Assembly: GCA_022709905.1 (NCBI GenBank)
Contig: JAKLHY010000024.1
Coordinates: 1 to 64,000 of the forward strand
Source of the DNA: Verrucomicrobiota bacterium
Lineage (GTDB): Bacteria > Verrucomicrobiota > Verrucomicrobiia > Limisphaerales > UBA1319
Reading direction: 5' to 3'
DNA length: 64,000 nucleotides
Shown here: piece by piece, positions 41,296-55,622 of the stretch
How positions within the stretch are numbered: position 1 is the stretch's first letter
How the letters are laid out: the number at the start of each line of letters is the position of its first letter
Program-made: the position numbers and the translations under genes
Notes under the pieces: generated by a model
What the model was told of the DNA's origin: nothing
What the model saw: only the letters and a program-made list of their open reading frames with translations
Database searches by the model: none

Positions 41296-42717
41296 ATGGA
41301 TATTAGGTTCGAGTGTCCAAATTGCGGCCAGCATTTAACCGTTGATGCTGAGGGGAGCGGGTTCTTGTTGCATTGCCCCAGTTGCGAAAAGCCAATTCGT
41401 ATCCCCACTGAAACACCCGCGAGATGCACCGCCGACGTGTCTCGGAGTTTTAAGCGATCTTTCCCGTTGAGCCTTTTAATTTTGCTTGGGGCTGTCATTG
41501 TCGTTCTGGTCTTTTTCGGCATACCGAGATCTCTGAAACGTGAATCAGTGATTCCCGTGGATCAGTCGAATTTCTCGCTCACTCCAACTTCGCTGCAGAA
41601 AAGCCGGGCTTATTTATTGATTACGTGTGAGAAACTCGTGGGCTGCTTTCAGCCGCTGATTCACCTCAGGCAGCAGCAGGACTTCAGCGTTGCGATTAGG
41701 AGCATTGAAAACATTGATCGAGAGCTTGAAGGTCGTGATCTACAGGAAAAAATTAGGAACTGCATTCGGAAGCAACAGGTGCAATCTGCACGGCCATTGT
41801 ATGTGCTGCTGGGGGGCGATGACGTCATCATCCCGATTCGCTACTGCCAGGCTAAACCTCGAGCCACATCGGATATTAAGGCCTGGGTTCCGAGTGACCT
41901 GTATTATTCGGATACGAGTCTTGGCACCTGGGACGCAGATCAAGATGGCCGTTACGGTGAGTTGGGTGACGATGATAGCCAAGTGTGCCTTGTGCCCTCC
42001 GTCTGTTTAGGCCGTATTCCGGTGCGTGAAGCAGAGGAAGCCACCGGTTATGTGAATAAAGTCCTTTGCTACGAAAATCAAGCACAAGCTCGACAAGGCC
42101 ATTCGTTCCTCTTCCTGGGCGGCCCGGCCTATATGGGCGACACCTACCGGCGTATCGTCTTGCCGGGATGTCCGGACTCACGTGCCGTGTTTCTTGGTGA
42201 AAAGCCATCGACCTCGATCGCGAAGGAATTTGAGGCTCTGACGCCTGATAATGCCGTTCGCTTGCTGAACAATGGCTATGATATGGTGACATATTCAGGC
42301 GAAGGTAGTGAACAAGCATGGGGGTGGTCCAATGGGGCCTTTGGGATAGCCGAGGCCTGGGCTTTGACCAACATGCAGTGCTTAAGTGTTGTGCGGAGCG
42401 GCGGCTGCAAGACGGCTTGGTTTGACGGAGCTAACGATCCCTGTTTAGCAGAAGCCTGGCTGCGTAATTCTCGAGGTGGCGCAGTCATTTACGCGGGTTT
42501 TGCCCGAGTTTTGTGCCATGGTCCGGTAGCCGGAGGAGGACAATACCAGGATGAGTATTATCGAAAACTGTTTCGCACTCCTGGTATCAGTGTCGGCCAG
42601 GCGTTCATGGAAATGAAGCAGAGCATGGCCAAGCGCAGCGAAACCTCACGGTGGCATCAGCACGGTTACATGTTACTCGGTGATCCAGCGATCGTCCCCG
42701 TTCGTTTTCCCAGATAG
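41296..42717 (+). CDS. Gingipain-like (peptidase C25) protein with zinc ribbon and membrane anchor; catalytic His replaced
   Basis: A 473-aa protein. An N-terminal zinc ribbon (FECPNCGQHLTVD, HCPSCEKPI) is followed by a membrane helix (PLSLLILLGAVIVVLVFFGI, about residues 55-75), then a C25-like domain: PLYVLLGGDDVIIPIRY, YDMVTYSGEGSEQAWGW, SGGCKTAWFD and GGAVIYAGFARV. In gingipain the first of these motifs reads TGHGSE with the catalytic His; here it is GEGSE (Glu336). Cys371 is in the position of the nucleophile. It may be an inactive or altered protease. It lies between the halves of copy B. Confidence 0.75.
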   Translation: MDIRFECPNCGQHLTVDAEGSGFLLHCPSCEKPIRIPTETPARCTADVSRSFKRSFPLSLLILLGAVIVVLVFFGIPRSLKRESVIPVDQSNFSLTPTSLQKSRAYLLITCEKLVGCFQPLIHLRQQQDFSVAIRSIENIDRELEGRDLQEKIRNCIRKQQVQSARPLYVLLGGDDVIIPIRYCQAKPRATSDIKAWVPSDLYYSDTSLGTWDADQDGRYGELGDDDSQVCLVPSVCLGRIPVREAEEATGYVNKVLCYENQAQARQGHSFLFLGGPAYMGDTYRRIVLPGCPDSRAVFLGEKPSTSIAKEFEALTPDNAVRLLNNGYDMVTYSGEGSEQAWGWSNGAFGIAEAWALTNMQCLSVVRSGGCKTAWFDGANDPCLAEAWLRNSRGGAVIYAGFARVLCHGPVAGGGQYQDEYYRKLFRTPGISVGQAFMEMKQSMAKRSETSRWHQHGYMLLGDPAIVPVRFPR

Positions 42718-42802: not shown

Positions 42803-42840
42803 GAGCCGAATACGTCGCCCGAGACGATCACCGGTAGGAA
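42803..42840 (+). pseudogene. Left half of copy B gene A3
   Basis: Matches CTGGGAGCCGAATACGTCGC and the following bases of A3 up to the IS66 target site. The other half is at 46353-46499. Bases 42833-42840 (GGTAGGAA) are the target duplication. Confidence 0.85.
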
Positions 42841-42880
42841 GTAACCGTCCGGCGGAGCCGTCTTACGCAGAGGGGAGAGG

Positions 42881-43258
42881 GTGTGGCAGGATGGAGGGGT
42901 GAAACGACCATCATCCATAAACGGCACGGTCCGGCGACATCGCACCCCCAAAGAGATCGCTGGGATTTTCAGAGACCACCGACGGAGCGGGCTTTCGCTG
43001 CTGGCCTTTGCCCGAAAGGAGGGACTGTGCTACGCGAGCCTTTTGCGCTGGAGATCCCGGCAATGCCAAGAAGCCAACGTTCTGGTGCCGCCAGCACCCC
43101 AGGCTGATCCACGATTTGTTCCGGTGAAGATCGAGGGTGAGGGGTTGGGCGGGGATTACGTCCTAAGCTGGCCCGCAGGACGTTCCCTGAAGATCCCGCT
43201 GCAATTCGAAACGGATTCTTTGCGCCGATTGCTCAGCGTGCTGGAGGCCGTGAGATGA
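42881..43258 (+). CDS. tnpA: IS66 TnpA (orf1)
   Basis: A 125-aa protein with the IS66 orf1 N-terminal HTH (PKEIAGIFRDHRRSGLSLLA, FARKEGLCYASLLRWR) and a C-terminal beta segment ending RRLLSVLEAVR. Start GTG at 42881; another GTG at 42899 is equally possible. It overlaps tnpB by 4 nt. Confidence 0.88.
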   Translation: MWQDGGVKRPSSINGTVRRHRTPKEIAGIFRDHRRSGLSLLAFARKEGLCYASLLRWRSRQCQEANVLVPPAPQADPRFVPVKIEGEGLGGDYVLSWPAGRSLKIPLQFETDSLRRLLSVLEAVR

Positions 43259-43611
43259 TTGGCCTCTTGCCCACGACGGCGATTTTCCTGGCCACCGCAC
43301 CCACGGATTTACGCAAAGCGTATGACGGGCTGGCGGTCTTGGTGCGCCAGAGCCTGGGTCAAGATCCCCTGAGTGGCAGCCTGTACGTTTTCTGTAATCG
43401 CCGAAAGGATCGAATTAAGATCCTCTTCTGGGAACCGGGGGGATATTGGTTGTGCGCGCGACGGCTTGAGGCCGGGACTTTTCGGTGGCCGCAAAAGGAG
43501 GGAGCCTGCGCGTGCTACCGGCGCGAGGAACTCTTGCTGCTCTTGGGAGGCATCGATCTCAAGCAGACCCACGAGCGGAAGTGGTATCGACGAGAGGCTG
43601 AAAAGAAATAG
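43255..43611 (+). CDS. tnpB: IS66 TnpB (orf2)
   Basis: A 118-aa protein with the typical orf2 sequence: TAPTDLRKAYDGLAVLVRQ, YVFCNRRKDRIKILFWEPGG and YWLCARRLEAGTFRWP. Normal length for IS66 Orf2. Required for transposition in this family. Confidence 0.95.
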   Translation: MIGLLPTTAIFLATAPTDLRKAYDGLAVLVRQSLGQDPLSGSLYVFCNRRKDRIKILFWEPGGYWLCARRLEAGTFRWPQKEGACACYRREELLLLLGGIDLKQTHERKWYRREAEKK

Positions 43612-43658
43612 ATTTTTCGCTGGACTCTGGAACCGATCTCAGCTTTTCTGGTTCCCAG

Positions 43659-44534
43659 ATGAGCGAAACGATCGAACTGCAAGGACGAAGCTGGCGCGCC
43701 CAGCAGATCCAAGAGATTGGCCAATGGGTGAGGGAAAACCCCGGCTGGAGCCGCTACCGGCTCTCGCGCGAGCTCTGCACCCGGTGCGGTTGGAGGCGCC
43801 CCAACGGGCAGTTGGCGGACATGGCGGCGCGTAGTTTCCTGAATAAGCTCCAGGAGCGAGCCCTGATCCAACTGCCCCCCTGCCGGCGGGAGAGTCCCAA
43901 CCGCATGAAGCACCGGCGGCTGGAATGCGTGGCGGTGGACACCGGTCCGGTGGCTGGAGAGCTCCGCCAGTTGGGAGCCCTTCAGCTTCACGAGGTGAGT
44001 TCGGATCCGGGCCGGCGCGCGGTCTTCGAAACGCTGCTGGCCACCGAGCATTATCTGAGCTACCGCAGTCCCATTGGAGAGAACCTCAAATATCTCTTGT
44101 GCACCGAGCAGGATCGTCCGGTGGCCGCCTGGCTTTTCGGGGCGGCCGCTTGGCGATGTGAGGCGCGGGATCGGTGGATCGGCTGGAACGATCAAGAGCG
44201 AGCCGCAGGCCTCCATCGACTGACGAACAACACCCGCTTCCTCATCCCCCGGTGGGTCCAGGTCCGTGGACTGGCCAGCTGGGGTTGGAGCCGGGTGAGT
44301 CGACGTCTGGTGGAAGATTGGCAGTCCAAGTATGGGCATGGGATTGAACTGGTGGAAACGTTTGTGGATCGGAGTCGGTTCCATGGGGGCGCTTATGCGG
44401 CCAGCAATTGGTTGGAGGTGGGGCTCACCCAGGGACGCAGCCGTGGGGATCGAGAGCGCCGGATCCAGGTTCCCAAGAAAGCCGTGTTTGTTTATCCGCT
44501 CAGCCGCCAGGCTCGCCAAAGGTTGTGCCGATGA
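43659..44534 (+). CDS. druA: DruA-family (DUF4338) protein inside IS66
   Basis: A 291-aa protein with DUF4338 features: AWLFGAAAWRCEARDRWIGW, LTNNTRFLIPRWVQVRGLAS, RRLVEDWQSKYGHGIELVET, FVDRSRFHGGAYAASNW. DUF4338 is the domain of DruA from the Druantia anti-phage system; no other Druantia genes are present. It lies between tnpB and tnpC and overlaps tnpC by 4 nt (ATGA). It must move with the element. Its role here may be defence or help in transposition; the sequence cannot decide. Confidence 0.85.
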   Translation: MSETIELQGRSWRAQQIQEIGQWVRENPGWSRYRLSRELCTRCGWRRPNGQLADMAARSFLNKLQERALIQLPPCRRESPNRMKHRRLECVAVDTGPVAGELRQLGALQLHEVSSDPGRRAVFETLLATEHYLSYRSPIGENLKYLLCTEQDRPVAAWLFGAAAWRCEARDRWIGWNDQERAAGLHRLTNNTRFLIPRWVQVRGLASWGWSRVSRRLVEDWQSKYGHGIELVETFVDRSRFHGGAYAASNWLEVGLTQGRSRGDRERRIQVPKKAVFVYPLSRQARQRLCR

Positions 44535-46255
44535 GCGCGACTCCAGAGGAAATGTTGGCGGAGGAAAACCAGCGGCTGCGCCAGGAGAACGAAGCATTGC
44601 GAAACCAGCGGAACACCCTTGAGTCTGAGAAGGAGGCGTTGCGACTCCAGCGGGATAGCCTTGAGTCTGAGAAGGAGGCGTTGCGACTCCAGCTCCAGGA
44701 GCTTGAAGTCATTCGGCGCAACCTGGAACATACGGTGGCTGTTTACAAGCGGTGTCTCTTTGGTTCTCGTTCGGAAAAGATTGATCCCAAGGAACTGGAG
44801 GCCCGGATTGCCAAAGCAGCTGCCGAGGCCCGGGACCAACTGGCCCAGGAGAAACGCCCGGGAGATCCTCCCCCGGAAGCCGAGGAAGAACAGCCTGAAG
44901 AGAAGGCGAACCCCTCGGCCGATCAAGCCAACCCGCCCGCAGATCAACCGGGCGACCCACAGAAAGAGAAGAAACGCCAAGCCCGCCCGCACGGCCGGGG
45001 TGGTTTTCCCGCGCATTTGCCGCGTCGCCGGATCGAGCATCCCGTCGATCCCGCCCAGGCCGTCTGTGGGTGTTGCCCGGATCATCCGCCCCTGATCCAG
45101 GTGGGGGAGGATACGTGTGAGAAACTGGTCAAGCTGCCCGTTCAATATGAGGTGCAGGTCCATGTGTATCCCCAGATGGCCTGCCAACGATGTCATGAGG
45201 GGGTGACCAGCGCGCCTCGCCAGGACAATAGCCTCCGAGCCGATGTGAGCGTGATCGCCGATGTCGTGGTCAAGAAGTACGTGGAACACCAACCCCTTTA
45301 CCGCCAGCAACAAGCCTTTGACCGATTAGAGATCCCGATCAGTCGGCAGACGCTCTGCGATTGGACCGGCTGGTGCAGCGATCAAGTCGAGCCGATCGTC
45401 CAGGCGATGGCCGACTATATCTGTGCCCAGCCGCTGATCCAGTCCGACGAGACCCCGGTGCGGATGCAATTAGCCAATGGCCAGATGGAGACGGCACGAC
45501 TCTTTGCCTACGGATTGCCGTGGGCGGAGGTGGTCTTTGATTTTCGAACGGACAAGAGCCAGAAAGGTCCCAAGGAGTTTCTTCAAAGGACCAGGGCTGG
45601 CTTTTTACAGACCGATGGGGGCAGTTCGTATGTGCCGGTGTTTAAAGCTCTGGAACTGTTGCATGTGGCGTGCATGGCGCATATTCGTCGAGGTCTATTC
45701 GAGGCTCGATCCGACGCGCCCCTGGCTGTGGATTTGTTGCTGGCTGCCATCCAGAAACTCTATCGGATCGAGAGCCAGGCCAAGGCGATGGGTCTGTGCC
45801 TGGAAGCCCGTTTGCAATTACGGCAGCAGGAAGCCAAGCCGATCTTTAACGACGTGGGCGATCTCATCGCCACGCTGCGCAAGGATGTCCTGCCCAAGAG
45901 CCCATTGGGCCGGGCGCTCAGCTATGCGCAGCACCAATGGCCGGCCATGGCTCGATACCTGGAGGTCCCTCAAGCCGAGTTGGACAATAACTCGACCGAA
46001 CATGGCCTCAGAGGAGTCGTGCTCGGTCGCCGTAACTGGCTGCACGTCGGCCAGGAAGCAGGCGGAGAGAAGGCGGCCCATCTCTTCTCGCTCATGATCA
46101 CCTGCAAGCGGCTGGGGGTCGAACCTTACGCCTACCTTCACGATATCCTGCGCCGGTTACCCACTCATCCCAACAAGCACATCTGGCAGCTCACTCCCAG
46201 GGGCTGGAAGGAAACCTTCGCGCCCAAGAGCCCGCCGCCCAGTCCCAGCGACTGA
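44531..46255 (+). CDS. tnpC: IS66 TnpC transposase
   Basis: A 574-aa IS66 transposase. A long coiled coil (about residues 8-75) leads to the zinc-finger part (YRQQQAFDRLEIPISRQTLC after CGCCPDHPPL) and the DDE domain: IQSDETPVRM (Asp), LQTDGGSSYVPVF (Asp), and LDNNSTEHGLRGVVLGRRNW (Glu). The IS66 C-terminal domain ends in PYAYLHDILRRLPTHP. Full length, thus probably active. A 42-bp tandem repeat (44617-44692) doubles LESEKEALRLQ in the coiled coil. Confidence 0.96.
   Translation: MSATPEEMLAEENQRLRQENEALRNQRNTLESEKEALRLQRDSLESEKEALRLQLQELEVIRRNLEHTVAVYKRCLFGSRSEKIDPKELEARIAKAAAEARDQLAQEKRPGDPPPEAEEEQPEEKANPSADQANPPADQPGDPQKEKKRQARPHGRGGFPAHLPRRRIEHPVDPAQAVCGCCPDHPPLIQVGEDTCEKLVKLPVQYEVQVHVYPQMACQRCHEGVTSAPRQDNSLRADVSVIADVVVKKYVEHQPLYRQQQAFDRLEIPISRQTLCDWTGWCSDQVEPIVQAMADYICAQPLIQSDETPVRMQLANGQMETARLFAYGLPWAEVVFDFRTDKSQKGPKEFLQRTRAGFLQTDGGSSYVPVFKALELLHVACMAHIRRGLFEARSDAPLAVDLLLAAIQKLYRIESQAKAMGLCLEARLQLRQQEAKPIFNDVGDLIATLRKDVLPKSPLGRALSYAQHQWPAMARYLEVPQAELDNNSTEHGLRGVVLGRRNWLHVGQEAGGEKAAHLFSLMITCKRLGVEPYAYLHDILRRLPTHPNKHIWQLTPRGWKETFAPKSPPPSPSD
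44617..44692 (+). repeat. In-frame 42-bp tandem repeat in tnpC
   Basis: Two copies of a 34-bp sequence with a 42-bp period (14 codons, two heptads) encode SLESEKEALRLQ-type segments. The repeat lengthens the coiled coil without breaking its register. Confidence 0.85.
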
Positions 46256-46352
46256 GTCCCACCCACTCTAGCCTTAACTGTCAGCCGGTTCGCTCGCCTC
46301 GCGCAATTACCCGACGCGCCCCGCGCCCCACACGGTTCCGCCGGACGGTTAC

Positions 46353-46499
46353 GGTAGGAAGCCATATTTGTCCGCCGCCGACAACGGACGGTGGTCTTTC
46401 AGGATACCCCGACGGGGCATTGGACTGAACATCCGTATCCACAGGTCAGTCCCCGGCATTGGGCCTACGCACTGATCCGGGCGGCTTTAGATCGCTGAT
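46353..46499 (+). pseudogene. Right half of copy B gene A3 (after IS66)
   Basis: Starts with the target duplication GGTAGGAA and continues as FVRRRQR-type sequence to the end of A3 (GHWTEHPYPQVSPRHWAY). It joins with 42803-42840 if the element is removed. Similarity to copy A continues to about 46665. Confidence 0.9.
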
Positions 46500-48036: not shown

Positions 48037-48148
48037 AAACCGATGGGTCCCAACAACTGGCGAAGCCTTCCGAGCAGTTTTTTGTCGAGACTCTTCTCAT
48101 CGGTGCGAATGTCGATTGGCATTCGGCTTGCTGGATTTAACCTTCTCT

Positions 48149-49012
48149 ATGGCAAGAAGTAGAAGAAGGAAAAATGATCCGTTGGAACTGATTGCCCCCA
48201 TTGCGGGTTTAGTGATGTTGGTAGGAATGGTCTCGCCCAAAGCCCGTGAGGCCATCTTTGCCGTCAGCATCGCCGCCTTCTGGCTCATGGGTATATTCCT
48301 GGTAGGATTGATTTGCTTCGGCATTTACAGATGGACGACACGATCGCTGAGGTCAACTTCGAGCCGCTCACTCCCTGAATCATCTTCCGATGAGACAAGT
48401 TCACTTTCTGTGATCGTCCCTGAAATGGAAGTTCCGAACCAAACTCGAAACACCCGGCAGAAGTCAATAGCTGAGCTTCTGGAGCAACTCCACTCTATCG
48501 ATTGGTTCCAATTTGAGAAGCTGGTTGCGCTGACTTATCGGAAACTGGGCTACATGGTGACCCGGAGAGGCGGAGCAAATCCTGATGGGGGCATTGACCT
48601 CCTGATTGAAAAGGAGGGGCAGCGGACAGCGGTCCAGTGCAAACACTGGAAAGCCTGGAAAGTGGGGGTCAAGGCGGTGCGTGAATTCCTGGGGGCTCTG
48701 ACCGATGCTGGAATTCAGAAAGGGATTTTCATTACGCTTCGAGGCTACAGTTCTGAGGCAAGGCAATTGGCCGAAAAGCATGGCATTGAAATCGTCCATG
48801 AGGTGGGGCTGGCGAAATTACTTGAGGCAACAGACGCCAATTACGATCCTGAAACGCTGGCGATCCTCCGGGATACATCCAAGTACTGTCCGAAGTGCGA
48901 ACGGGAGATGGTTTTGCGGACCGCCGCTAAAGGTGCGGGAGCAGGCAAACAGTTCTGGGGTTGCTCAGGCTACCCGAGGTGTCGGTATACGATGCCCGTG
49001 TCGGAAGACTAA
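48149..49012 (+). CDS. Membrane-anchored Mrr-type restriction endonuclease with zinc ribbon
   Basis: A 287-aa protein. Two membrane helices (ELIAPIAGLVMLVGMV; AAFWLMGIFLVGLICFGIYR) precede an Mrr-cat nuclease: FEKLVALTYRKLGYMVTRRG, NPDGGIDLLIE (catalytic Asp) and AVQCKHWK (QxK), then GAGKQFWGCSGYPRCRYT, a topoisomerase-type zinc ribbon. Such proteins are linked with restriction of foreign DNA. The shorter start at 48149 (MARSRRRKNDP) gives a basic N-terminus before the first helix. It stands directly before the I-E operon on the same strand. Confidence 0.85.
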   Translation: MARSRRRKNDPLELIAPIAGLVMLVGMVSPKAREAIFAVSIAAFWLMGIFLVGLICFGIYRWTTRSLRSTSSRSLPESSSDETSSLSVIVPEMEVPNQTRNTRQKSIAELLEQLHSIDWFQFEKLVALTYRKLGYMVTRRGGANPDGGIDLLIEKEGQRTAVQCKHWKAWKVGVKAVREFLGALTDAGIQKGIFITLRGYSSEARQLAEKHGIEIVHEVGLAKLLEATDANYDPETLAILRDTSKYCPKCEREMVLRTAAKGAGAGKQFWGCSGYPRCRYTMPVSED

Positions 49013-49078
49013 AAGCCATCGATCTCTTTTGCAGAAATGAGGGAATCGATGCTACAAAATTGAGCCGAAGAAAAATAT

Positions 49079-49107
49079 GGGGGTTGGACCGTATTTGACC
49101 AACCCCC
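49079..49107 (+). promoter_or_regulatory. GC-rich palindrome upstream of I-E cas3, shared with the I-C operon
   Basis: GGGGGTTGG and CCAACCCCC form a perfect 9-bp inverted repeat around ACCGTATTTGA. The 11-nt core (CAAATACGGTC on the reverse strand) is the same as at 9081-9110. It ends 20 bp before the cas3 ATG at 49128. The longest open frame begins inside the palindrome, which argues for the later start codon. Confidence 0.6.
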
Positions 49108-49127
49108 TATGCTTAAATCTTGAGGTA

Positions 49128-51752
49128 ATGGATCCGGACAACATTCATTTTTGGGCGAAGACCACGAAGAATGCCGAGGGAATAGATATGCCCGGCATTT
49201 CTGTCTATGACCACTGCCTCAATGTCGGTTGCGTGGCGGAGGCGCTGATCGCGGCGTTGCCGCCACGCGTGCAAGCCTTGCTCCCGCCGGGCGCGGTCAC
49301 ACTGGCGGCGCTGCATGACATCGGGAAGATCACGCTTGGCTTCCAGGCCAAGTGTCCGATGTGGCTGGAAGACGACCGGTTGCCGAAGTTCTCACCGGGC
49401 GAGATTGTGCTATCCGTTTCCGATCATGCTTTGGTCAGCCAGGTGTTCCTCCAAAATTCGCTTCAGCCTGCGCCTGCCCGGCTCTGGGCCGCTGCCGTTG
49501 GTGCGCATCATGGTCGGCCGAAAGGTAGAACTGCGCAGTTACCCAAAAGCACGCCGGAAGCCCTCGCCAAATGGGCGGAGCTTCATCGCGGCAAACTTGC
49601 TCGGGAACTTATTTCACTATTTGGCGCTCTACCTGACTTACCGCCTGATCCTCGCTTCGTTCCGCATCACTCCGACCTGTGGCTTCTCGCAGGACTCATA
49701 ACTGTCGCGGACTGGATTGGTTCGAACGAAACGTGGTTCTCACCCAAACGTGGGCTGCCACAGGAAGTTGCCCGGCAGCAGGCGCGGAGCGCGCTGGTTC
49801 GGATCGGCTGGCCGGGTGGGCGGCTCAAGCAGACCGACTTTGCGACCGCATTCTTCGCCGGACAGCAAACCCCTTTCATCCCGAATCCGCTGCAACAGGC
49901 CGTGGTGGAGGCCGCACAAGCTCCCGGCGTCATCATCATCGAAGGCCCAATGGGCTGCGGCAAAACCGAGGCAGCCCTGTTCGCCGCACAGCAATGGATC
50001 GCTGTCGGCCCCAACCACGGAATCTACTTTGCGCTCCCCACCCAGGTGACCAGCAACCGGATTCACAAGCGCGTCGAACAATTCCTCCGCAATACGCTGG
50101 TGGACGAAGCGCCGCTGCGACTGGCCCACGGAAACGCCTGGCTAGAAGACGATTTCGATCTTCGCCTCCGGCCGACGTTCCACTGGCGATCCGATAGAAG
50201 CAGTGACGACCCCGCCGAGAGTGTTCGTGAATCCCGCTCTTGGTTTGCCTCGGCCAAACAAGCACTACTGGCCACTTACGGTGTGGGCACAATTGACCAA
50301 GCTCTTCAAGCCGTGGTGGCGGTGAAACACTTCTTTGTCAGGCGTTTTGCCCTCGCCGGCAAGGTCGTCATCCTCGACGAAGTCCATTCCTACGACATCT
50401 ACACCGGCACGCTCGTCGCGGCGCTCATCCGCGAGCTGGTGAATCTCCGCTGTTCTGTCGTCGTCCTGAGCGCCACGCTCACCGCCGCCCGGCGCAGGGA
50501 ATTGCTCAAGGGAGCGGGTGTAATCGAAACCGATTCGCCGCAAACCTACCCGCTCATCACCACAGGCGTAAACGGAAACGCCCGACACTTCGCCCCTGAC
50601 TGGAAATCGAAACGCCGCATCGCTCTGCGTCCGGCTGTTATCCCCGAAGCCGAAACTGTTGCCGAGCTTGTCCGGCGCGCCGAGGCCGGTCAACAGGTTC
50701 TCTGGATTCGCAACACGGTGATCGAGGCGCAGGAAGCATTTCGAGAGGCTTGTTGCTCAGCGCGTGAATGCCTCGTGCGCGTCGGCCTGCTGCACAGCCG
50801 GTTTCCCTTTCAACGCCGCGCGCAACTTGAGGACGACTGGCTGGAACGGCTCGGCAAAAACCGTCCCGCCGATGGGCCAGGCTCCATCCTCATAGCAACC
50901 CAGGTCGTGGAGCAAAGCGTGGACATCGACTTGGATTTCATCATCTCCGACCTCGCTCCCACCGATATGCTACTTCAGCGCCTCGGACGCTTGTGGCGGC
51001 ACGAACGTCCCCACCGCCCCACCTCGCAACCGGAGTTTTGGATTCGCCTACCGGAGTTGCCTGCCAATGCGGATGCCGGCGCATTGAAAAAGTCCTTCGG
51101 ACGCAGTGCCCGCGTCTATGCGCCTTATGTCCTCTTGCGGACGATGGATGTCTGGCAATCGCAAACGGAAATCAATCTCCCAGCCGATATCCGCCCACTG
51201 CTCGAAGCCACCTACGCCGAACCGGACAAGAACGAGGCAGACGCCTGGAGGGAAGTCCATGCGGAATTGGAAACCGAGAAGGCCACCCTTGCCGCCAATG
51301 CTGCTGCCGCCACCCGTGTGCTGGGCAATCCCGTGCTCGCCGACAAGGAGGAAATCCTCACCCGGCGCAAAGGCCCTCCCACCACACCGGTCATCCTGCT
51401 TCGCTCCATCACGGGCGGGCTCAACGGCCTCACCACGCTCGCGGCGCTTGATGGCTCGCGCGTCGAAATAAGCGAACACGAATGGCGGCGTGCCCATGCC
51501 CGCTTCCTGCTCGAATGGATGGTGCGCGCCCCGCATTGGATGGTTCCCGCGAATGCGCCCCGCCCGCGATGGCTCGACCTGCACGGTCCTTCCGATGCTG
51601 TGGTCGCCGTGGTGCGCGACGACGGGCGCTGCCTTTTCGGCGAAGACGTTTCCCCGATGACATACGATCCGCGCCTCGGCCTTTTTGCCGAACGCGCTCC
51701 ACAACCCGCACCGCAAACCTGGAAGGACGACGACGATGAATTTGACTATTGA
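49128..51752 (+). CDS. cas3: Cas3 nuclease-helicase (type I-E)
   Basis: An 874-aa protein. HD motif LAALHDIGKITLGFQ and NVGCVAEAL-type N-terminus (residues about 20-90); helicase Walker A EGPMGCGKTEAALF, DEVH box VVILDEVHSYD, motif III VVLSATLTAARR, and motif VI LLQRLGRLWRH. It begins with MDPDNIHFWAKT, the usual I-E start, with GAGGT close upstream. Target-strand unwinding and cleavage are expected. It overlaps cse1 by 17 nt. Confidence 0.97.
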   Translation: MDPDNIHFWAKTTKNAEGIDMPGISVYDHCLNVGCVAEALIAALPPRVQALLPPGAVTLAALHDIGKITLGFQAKCPMWLEDDRLPKFSPGEIVLSVSDHALVSQVFLQNSLQPAPARLWAAAVGAHHGRPKGRTAQLPKSTPEALAKWAELHRGKLARELISLFGALPDLPPDPRFVPHHSDLWLLAGLITVADWIGSNETWFSPKRGLPQEVARQQARSALVRIGWPGGRLKQTDFATAFFAGQQTPFIPNPLQQAVVEAAQAPGVIIIEGPMGCGKTEAALFAAQQWIAVGPNHGIYFALPTQVTSNRIHKRVEQFLRNTLVDEAPLRLAHGNAWLEDDFDLRLRPTFHWRSDRSSDDPAESVRESRSWFASAKQALLATYGVGTIDQALQAVVAVKHFFVRRFALAGKVVILDEVHSYDIYTGTLVAALIRELVNLRCSVVVLSATLTAARRRELLKGAGVIETDSPQTYPLITTGVNGNARHFAPDWKSKRRIALRPAVIPEAETVAELVRRAEAGQQVLWIRNTVIEAQEAFREACCSARECLVRVGLLHSRFPFQRRAQLEDDWLERLGKNRPADGPGSILIATQVVEQSVDIDLDFIISDLAPTDMLLQRLGRLWRHERPHRPTSQPEFWIRLPELPANADAGALKKSFGRSARVYAPYVLLRTMDVWQSQTEINLPADIRPLLEATYAEPDKNEADAWREVHAELETEKATLAANAAAATRVLGNPVLADKEEILTRRKGPPTTPVILLRSITGGLNGLTTLAALDGSRVEISEHEWRRAHARFLLEWMVRAPHWMVPANAPRPRWLDLHGPSDAVVAVVRDDGRCLFGEDVSPMTYDPRLGLFAERAPQPAPQTWKDDDDEFDY

Positions 51753-54443: not shown

Positions 54444-55622
54444 ATGAAACTGATTGAACTCCACATCCTCCAATCGTTCCCTGTCTCCTGTCTGAACCGT
54501 GATGACGTCGGCTCGCCCAAGACTGCCGTCTTCGGCGGCGTCAACCGCGCCAGGCTTTCCAGCCAGTCGCTCAAACGACCGATTAGACTCGCACTTCAAG
54601 AACAAGCGCCCTCCATATTTGCAGGCGAGCGCAGCAAGCTGATCATCATCCCACTGGCAGATCGGATCGAAAAGATCGGCGTAGAACGCGAACGCGCATT
54701 GGAGCTTGCCCGCGCTACGGGGGCTTATTTGGCAACATTGGACGAGAAAGCTGCCGCCAAGGGAGTCGAGAAAGTGAAAACCCTCATGTTTCTTTCTCCG
54801 GCGGAACTCGACAGCATTGCCAAAGATCTCGCTCATGCGTCGAAAGCAGCGCCCCCGGCCGCATCACAGCCCGACGAATCTGGCGCGAAGATAAAGAAGA
54901 AGGGAGACAGCAGTCTGGACGTAGGCAAGATCGCAGCAAAAGCCTGTAACAATGTGGCGCTTAAAGACGCGGCAGACATCGCTCTGTTCGGTCGTATGGT
55001 CGCGAGTGATCATTCCATTACGGTGGAAGGGGCCGCCATGTTTGGCCATGCTCTTTCCACACACAAGGCCGACAACGATCTGGATTTTTTTACAGCCGTT
55101 GATGACCGTCAAAAGGAAGACCCCACCGTCGGCGAAGAAGATCGGACAGGCAGTGGAATGATGGGAACTTTGGAATTCTCCTCCGCTGTCTACTACCGCT
55201 ACGTGGCACTAAACTTGGATCAACTATTCTACCAGACAGATCGAGACGGCAAACCAAGCGCGAATCTGAGCAGTCTTCTTGGGGCGGATCACCTGTCAAT
55301 TCGGCAGAAGATCGTCGACGCCTTTATTCGCGCCACGCTCATGACCGTTCCCGGCGCGCGGAAGAACTCCATGAACGCCCACACCCTTCCTGGATGCGTA
55401 ATCGGAACATTCAAGTCCGCCGGACAACCCGTCCAGTTGATCAATGCCTTCGAAACGCCCGTTCGCCCGAAATCCGGACTGATGAATGCCTCTATCGAAG
55501 CCCTGAAGGCTCATCACGCCCAACTGAAGGAAACGTGGGGTATTGCCTGCGATGAGGAAGTGATCCTGCCCAACAAGAACCTCAACGCCTTCTGCGAGGC
55601 CCTCACCAAGCATGTTAGCTAA
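54444..55622 (+). CDS. cas7e: Cas7e backbone subunit (CasC/Cse4)
   Basis: A 392-aa protein with the CasC N-terminus IELHILQSFPVSCLNRDDVG, SPKTAVFGGVNRARLSSQSL and the core AALFGRMVASDH-type segment (ADIALFGRMVASDHSITVEG), then SAVYYRYVALNLDQL. Six copies form the crRNA-binding backbone. A variable lysine-rich insert (KAAPPAASQPDESGAKIKKK) lies in the middle at about residues 133-152. Follows cas6e by 38 bp with no clear terminator. Confidence 0.95.
   Translation: MKLIELHILQSFPVSCLNRDDVGSPKTAVFGGVNRARLSSQSLKRPIRLALQEQAPSIFAGERSKLIIIPLADRIEKIGVERERALELARATGAYLATLDEKAAAKGVEKVKTLMFLSPAELDSIAKDLAHASKAAPPAASQPDESGAKIKKKGDSSLDVGKIAAKACNNVALKDAADIALFGRMVASDHSITVEGAAMFGHALSTHKADNDLDFFTAVDDRQKEDPTVGEEDRTGSGMMGTLEFSSAVYYRYVALNLDQLFYQTDRDGKPSANLSSLLGADHLSIRQKIVDAFIRATLMTVPGARKNSMNAHTLPGCVIGTFKSAGQPVQLINAFETPVRPKSGLMNASIEALKAHHAQLKETWGIACDEEVILPNKNLNAFCEALTKHVS

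Follow-up and report, generated by a model that had tools for sequence, protein, structure and literature searches.

A 64,000-nt stretch at the start of contig JAKLHY010000024.1 from a Verrucomicrobiota bacterium (the window, meaning the whole stretch analyzed) carries an intact IS66 insertion sequence (IS) of 3512 bp at positions 42841-46352. Its four genes, tnpA, tnpB, a DruA/DUF4338 gene and tnpC, all run in the same direction (Table 1). We report that a large class of IS66 elements, and several unrelated IS families as well, carry DruA as a regular accessory gene, and that in these elements it probably encodes a relative of Mom, the DNA modification protein of phage Mu.

An IS66 element with a fourth gene

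The window element shares with IS66 a TnpC encoded downstream of TnpA and TnpB, terminal repeats starting with GTAA and an 8-bp target duplication. GTAA ends are typical for IS66. It departs from the standard element in having DruA as a fourth gene, located between tnpB and tnpC, and a second form described below carries DruA and TnpC only. With up to 3 mismatches allowed, the terminal repeat was found twice in the 64-kb window and in none of 100 shuffles. The tnpA open reading frame matched NF047593 with 34.3 bits (cut-off 28), and DruA matched PF14236 with 118 bits (cut-off 27) over profile positions 47-222 of 297. Between the two ends of the element, tnpA, tnpB, druA and tnpC gave the only family matches, with no DruB-E.

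Table 1. The IS66 element and features around it in the window
Feature	Position	Strand	Description
Left target-duplication copy	42833-42840	.	GGTAGGAA, 8 bp, exact match to 46353-46360, read from sequence
Left terminal inverted repeat	42841-42861	+	Starts GTAA; 20/21 complementary to 46332-46352
tnpA	42881-43258	+	IS66 accessory protein TnpA-like; GTG start; NCBIfam NF047593 E 2.5e-8
tnpB	43255-43611	+	4-nt overlap with tnpA; PF05717 E 8.9e-35
DruA/DUF4338 gene	43659-44534	+	291 aa; PF14236 E 5.8e-34
Predicted DruA domains			Helix-turn-helix (HTH)-like N-terminal, ~aa 1-80; Mom-like GNAT, ~aa 100-291
ATGA overlap	44531-44534	+	druA stop TGA shares letters with tnpC start ATG
tnpC	44531-46255	+	IS66 DDE transposase; PF03050 E 3.2e-69; NF033517 332.7 bits, cut-off 180
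Right terminal inverted repeat	46332-46352	-	20/21 complementary to left repeat
Right target-duplication copy	46353-46360	.	GGTAGGAA, read from sequence
Tandem repeats in tnpC	44585-44710		Three 42-bp repeats, adding 14-residue units to a predicted N-terminal coiled coil
Peptidase C25 (gingipain-like) gene	41296-42717		Directly upstream of the element; N-terminal CPNCG...HCPSC zinc-ribbon-like start
Mrr-type restriction endonuclease	48116-49012		With topoisomerase-type zinc ribbon
Cas3	49077-51752		
CT1975/Cas7-type gene	54444-55622		

In its source assembly the window element is present once, together with one 138-bp partial match. PF14236 is found five times in this genome: the window DruA, a second and divergent tnpB-DruA-tnpC element (contig C1) whose DruA is 40% identical to that of the window, a PF14236-ISAs1 transposase fusion (contig C27, L004), and two fragments (L003, L005).

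Relatives show that DruA moves with its IS element. One Verrucomicrobiales metagenome-assembled genome holds four identical copies of a 3475-bp IS66 encoding TnpB, DruA and TnpC, with an 8-bp duplication at two of them, a 9-bp match at one (L088) and none at one (L090). A DruA-bearing IS4-like element of 2556 bp likewise has four copies, which are 99.96-100% identical and all flanked by 9-bp duplications. In the complete genome of Alicyclobacillus sp. ALC3, a 2494-bp IS66 with DruA and TnpC only is present twice (L070 and L072), with an 8-bp duplication at one copy and none at L072. Many of the other IS66 loci classed as lacking TnpB are cut by contig ends, and these two alone are shown to be complete. 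An ISKra4-like element of 2702 bp (L061) ends in inverted repeats that match at 20/20 and is flanked by a 9-bp duplication. DruA sits between both element ends in every one of these multi-copy or delimited elements. Locus L080 has 26/26 repeats and no duplication, and for the ISKra4-like loci L055 and L067 the stretches examined contain no clear terminal repeats.

A recurrent gene next to unrelated transposases

Our scan of GTDB species genomes for DruA relatives yielded 506, of which we retained the best 80. In 72 of these 80 a transposase gene follows directly downstream, an IS66 TnpC in 62 cases, ISKra4-like in 6 and IS4-like in 4; the remaining 8, including 3 at a contig end, have no assigned transposase. 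The query was built mostly from IS66 DruA forms, so that, with only the best 80 retained, the transposase-linked share is biased toward IS66-type DruA. Relatives come from Verrucomicrobiota, Acidobacteriota, Planctomycetota, Pseudomonadota, Bacillota, Elusimicrobiota and other phyla. Chance insertion of DruA into IS66 is rejected because the arrangement recurs in many phyla. Within a set of 97 related genomes, 41 contain a PF14236 match, and at 30 TnpB loci of this set DruA stands between tnpB and tnpC in 7, TnpC comes without DruA in 15 and 8 are unreadable.

The association extends to transposases unrelated to TnpC, the same domain standing immediately ahead of the transposase in each case. 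In ISKra4-like and IS4-like elements it is a separate gene, whereas in two further families it is fused to the transposase rather than separate as in the window IS66. Relatives from the 97-genome search carry PF14236 at the N terminus of IS4/Tn5 transposases (L009, L012, L018, L019, L024), and N-terminal fusions to ISAs1 transposases occur at L004, L017, L020, L021 and L030-L034. At L038, the underlying plasmid record carries the annotation ISAs1 transposase. A tblastn search with the window DruA found two plasmid records and no match in a phage collection. Altogether, the view of DruA as a regular accessory gene of a large IS66 class and of several unrelated IS families is well supported. Window duplicates (L001, L035, L036) were excluded from counts and trees, and L037 and L038 from the counts of IS66 loci and overlaps.

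Two further sightings concern this spread. On a Thiodictyon plasmid (L037, 3980-7182), a DUF4338 gene lies upstream of an integrase and an IS91 transposase, a single sighting that makes IS91 a possible, not an established, further family with this module. Within the same order, a genome in a single contig of 4.9 Mb (G075 contig 1) has 21 PF14236 matches, L019 being one copy, and several of them fall in open frames of ~790 aa, the size of a transposase fusion.

DruA and its transposase are also linked in gene arrangement and descent. The 4-nt overlap between DruA and TnpC is found at 32 of the 69 IS66 loci with DruA, a count that includes the identical copies L087-L090. L046 and L047, which the automatic rule had missed, were placed in IS66 manually. 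At most of the other IS66 loci TnpC starts within 16 nt of DruA, and ATGA also precedes the unrelated transposases of the ISKra4-like L061 and the IS4-like L076. Distances between DruA proteins correlate with those between their TnpC partners (r 0.68, n=56), both at TnpB-bearing loci (0.84, n=31) and at the others (0.48, n=25), and 0 of 2000 permutations reached as high a value in any of the three comparisons. On a TnpB tree made from the 30 loci L180-L209, with the 8 undetermined loci and one below the length limit left out, DruA presence requires 5 changes compared with 12.4 in shuffles, indicating that DruA is inherited, with several gains or losses possible. Across eight pairs, the ratio of nonsynonymous to synonymous substitution rates is 0.08-0.26 for DruA and 0.06-0.21 for TnpC, and DruA is thus under purifying selection, like TnpC. 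The DruA module appears to have switched between transposases: for ten labels, covering IS types, Druantia forms and unassigned rows, the DruA tree requires 28 changes against a possible minimum of 9.

These results bear on a sequence-only reading of the locus, which had placed a DUF4338 gene between tnpB and tnpC with a 4-nt tnpC overlap, bounded by terminal repeats and 8-bp duplications. The PF14236, PF05717 and PF03050 matches confirm the placement, and the boundaries hold with 20/21 repeats and an exact GGTAGGAA pair. That the gene moves with the element, as it also claimed, is borne out by the identical multi-copy relatives, the 4-nt coupling and the co-divergence of DruA and TnpC. The survey of IS66 copies it called for found the arrangement to be recurrent.

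Likeness to Mom and distance from Druantia

An AlphaFold2 model of DruA built from 78 relatives (predicted local distance difference test, pLDDT, 92.5) consists of an N-terminal beta-hairpin and three-helix domain followed by a GNAT domain. Aligned with VIA-align, the model gave as its top row a crystal structure of Mom from phage Mu (8bv8, the S124A form), with Z 14.2, a root-mean-square deviation of 3.8 Å and 169 aligned residues over model positions 101-291. Among the 78 relatives, 53 match the Pfam Mom family (PF25680) at E<=1, the best at 1.9e-6, compared with 2 for Acetyltransf_7 and 13 for HTH_32. Profile-profile alignment (hhalign) of the DruA family with 12 phage Moms reached 95.6% probability at E 1.2e-8 over 173 columns. 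A plain phmmer search of DruA against PDB sequences returned 0 matches, and a profile search one chance match.

The likeness extends to individual residues. In the profile-profile alignment, read by hand, DruA and Mom pair as H131/H58, Y132/Y59, R193/R111, S207/S124, D237/D149, G243/G156, Y246/Y159, A248/A161, N250/N163 and G255/G168 (Mom in the 241-residue numbering, which we assume S124 of 8bv8 to share; the S207/S124 pair was counted by eye). H58, Y59, R111, D149, G156, Y159, A161, N163 and G168 are invariant in the 12 phage Moms. Equivalents of H58, Y59, R111, S124, F147, G156, Y159, A161, N163 and G168 are each present in 74-78 of the 78 DruA relatives, while the D149 equivalent, D237, is D in 53, E in 24 and Q in 1. 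The title of 8bv8 names S124A as an inactive Mom mutant. IS-linked DruA and Mu Mom would thus share the GNAT fold, the HY, ELNR-type R and S124 motifs, and the Q/E-S/T-F-A/V-D and G..Y.A.N..G motifs. They differ in the additional HTH-like domain at the N terminus of DruA, in their carriers (IS elements, not phages), in the frequent E at the D149 position and in overall sequence, with 17% identity in the structural alignment. From profiles and models together, the prediction that IS-linked DruA is a Mom-like protein is well supported.

Several observations nevertheless weigh against this reading and the functional proposal built on it. Foldseek's own best matches are generic GNATs; the VIA-align row after Mom is another GNAT at Z 13.3, a formal tie (within 1); the window DruA alone has no match to Pfam Mom at E<=1; none of the 12 phage Moms matches PF14236; and hhalign against Mu Mom alone covers 30 columns at a probability of 7%. 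Key positions also vary, D149 being E in 24 of the 78 relatives, Y59 being P in all five IS4/Tn5 fusions and N163 being G in 8 of 11 ISAs1 fusions, so that some DruA forms may have lost activity or act on another substrate. Evidence for an HTH is weak: the N-terminal domain folded alone (pLDDT 83.6) had no Foldseek match at E<=0.001, and its best VIA-align matches, winged helices of the LexA, MarR and Z-alpha-like kinds, reach only Z 4.8. Finally, 15 of the 22 readable IS66 elements in the order-level TnpB sample lack DruA, which is therefore not essential to IS66.

The GNAT fold is common to protein acetyltransferases, and the top Foldseek matches of the DruA model include RimI (E 4.3e-6) and SpeG. 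DruA could accordingly act on a protein or RNA, for instance the transposase, a nucleoid protein or a tRNA, instead of DNA. We consider this improbable, as the closest full-domain match is Mom and the Mom-specific motifs are kept. The residue variation would also suit a catalytically dead GNAT scaffold that binds DNA or the transposase and helps assemble the transpososome in a TnpA- or TnpB-like role. With D149 and Y59 varying in some lineages, an HTH-like N terminus that matches HTH_32 in some relatives, and elements (L070/L072) without TnpA and TnpB in which DruA could stand in for them, such a scaffold merits consideration; it is unlikely all the same, because a near-invariant set of Mom residues, including the serine whose mutation inactivates Mom, exceeds what a scaffold needs.

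Separately, in Microbacterium phage Appa a Mom-like gene lies beside a tRNA-Gly gene (L175, 145-878). The Mom modification contains a glycine-like group, which makes this pairing suggestive.

The Pfam name of the domain is DruA, and the sequence-only reading had offered a portable Druantia anti-phage gene as one explanation. Judged by its sequence, the window gene is not a Druantia DruA. As true Druantia DruAs we took three rows, from Nitrosococcus watsonii, Pseudomonas putida and Meiothermus plasmids, encoded beside a DEAD/DEAH-box helicase. They match PF14236 with 271-273 bits over the whole profile length and show no Mom match by profile; directly against Mom, hhalign detected no homology (E 0.049, probability 1.1%), a weak negative given the three rows. 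The type I protein belongs to the same Pfam family as the IS form, but it is 410 aa long with its own C-terminal part and stands beside the DruE helicase, unlike the 291-aa window protein. The two forms share only an 82-column segment (GENLKYLV...RDRFIGW, hhalign E 1e-7). Opposite H131, Y132, R193, S207, D237 and G243 of the IS form, Druantia DruA shows W, S, V, G, K and S, in an alignment that is uncertain outside the anchored segment, and none of Mom's H, R, S, D, A and N has a counterpart in it.

In an unrooted tree of 108 rows, Druantia DruA and two long DruA forms (5 rows) are split from the other 103 with 99% support in the Shimodaira-Hasegawa-like approximate likelihood ratio test (SH-aLRT), while the window DruA groups with two IS66 DruAs at 100%. 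For this tree L095, with TnpB 2 kb upstream, was relabelled by hand as TnpB-bearing. The branches at the split are very long (4.4 and 3.1) and meet on the Druantia side, where the program warned of them and the inner order is unsure. Phage Mom and the IS forms have the Mom-type residues and Druantia has lost them, which would make Druantia DruA a derived form.

A Druantia gene riding in the IS is thus highly improbable. The Mrr-type gene and the type I-E-like CRISPR genes 1.8-9 kb from the element would be fitting company for one. Yet the window DruA scores only 13.4 bits (E 0.0078) against the PADLOC DruA1 model, falls in a separate clade on a very long branch, carries other key residues and has no DruB-E in its element, and DruA is found, with no Druantia partners, in three IS families unrelated to one another. 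The defence-gene option is therefore rejected. IS66-linked and Druantia forms separate in the DUF4338 tree, the opposite of the deep placement within Druantia, with no other IS66 carrying the gene, that had been named as refuting the sequence-only reading. The alternative offered at the same time, a transposition factor, is favoured over the defence gene; the sequence-only reading had missed the relation to Mom, which changes the functional picture. As to its corollary, that Druantia recruited DruA from this gene, the derived state of Druantia DruA fits recruitment from a Mom-like ancestor but, on an unrooted tree, falls short of proving that the donor was an IS.

Around the element itself, the CRISPR-Cas locus downstream is of a type I-E-like kind and stands beside a nuclease of the modification-dependent type. 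Two loci from the wider collection touch on Druantia and its relatives. On a Pseudomonas putida plasmid (L211, 7015-10915) a true Druantia type I druA is immediately preceded by an IS66 that lacks DruA. At L167 (6075-9698), a 1207-aa protein combines a long DruA region with an SspF-like region beside three genes without a PADLOC match, possibly an unlisted defence system.

A possible DNA-modifying accessory of transposition

We propose that DruA is an HTH-like and Mom-like acyltransferase that would chemically modify DNA as an accessory to transposition, a proposal that we hold to be evenly poised between right and wrong. We infer catalysis, DNA as the substrate and the step served. DruA would bind DNA and acyl-modify a base in the transposon or target DNA, probably at N6 of adenine by analogy with Mom, acting beside the transposase, its partner in translational coupling or in a fusion protein. 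Such a mark would regulate or tag DNA that is being transposed, or guard that DNA against nucleases in the process. A marking or protective role of this kind would explain the fusion and coupling to transposases, and a genome-wide anti-restriction effect would explain the likeness to Mu.

The latter leads to the foremost alternative, an active Mom-like protein carried as a passenger, whose DNA modification spares the element and its carrier replicon from restriction by enzymes of the host or of a new host and which serves no transposition step. It draws on the same fold, profile and residue evidence, on the N6-adenine acyl modification made by Mom, as given in a passage of a jumbo-phage paper (PMC7824862), and on the protection of Mu DNA from restriction by Mom, as stated in part of PMC6483171. 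Fusion to the transposase in two IS families and ATGA coupling tie DruA to the level and place of the transposase, however, and entry into cells as naked DNA is not usual for IS elements. We regard this passenger role as fairly unlikely, if worth keeping in view.

Earlier descriptions touch on parts of this picture. DUF4338 is called a GNAT domain in DndF in a passage of PMC10853773, an independent statement of the fold that concerns a fusion in a defence protein, not an IS gene. Synechococcus phage proteins structurally like DruA appear in part of a phage annotation paper (PMC12774648). In the open-licence PubMed Central literature, with subscription journals and ISfinder pages outside the search, we found no link between DUF4338 and IS66, and nothing on this gene as an IS66 passenger or accessory or as a Mom-like acetyltransferase with a transposase.

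To our knowledge, IS66 TnpA and TnpB have no clear role. The L070/L072 element suggests that DruA can replace them, and elements with DruA in their place offer a handle on what they do. More broadly, and more tentatively than the proposal for DruA itself, a Mom-like hypermodification enzyme may be a common transposon module, coupled to the transposase in IS66, ISKra4-like and IS4-like elements and fused to it in IS4/Tn5 and ISAs1. It would mark DNA during transposition and replace TnpA and TnpB in the two-gene IS66, with Druantia DruA as a derived, catalytically dead member.

If this is true, most IS-linked genes called Druantia DruA are misnamed and counts of defence systems based on the domain only are inflated, a function is suggested for a widespread domain of unknown function, and the way in which Druantia type I obtained one of its components is indicated. 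Non-methyl DNA modification would then belong to the life cycle of ordinary insertion sequences, beyond phages, and transposons may modify DNA to move or survive.
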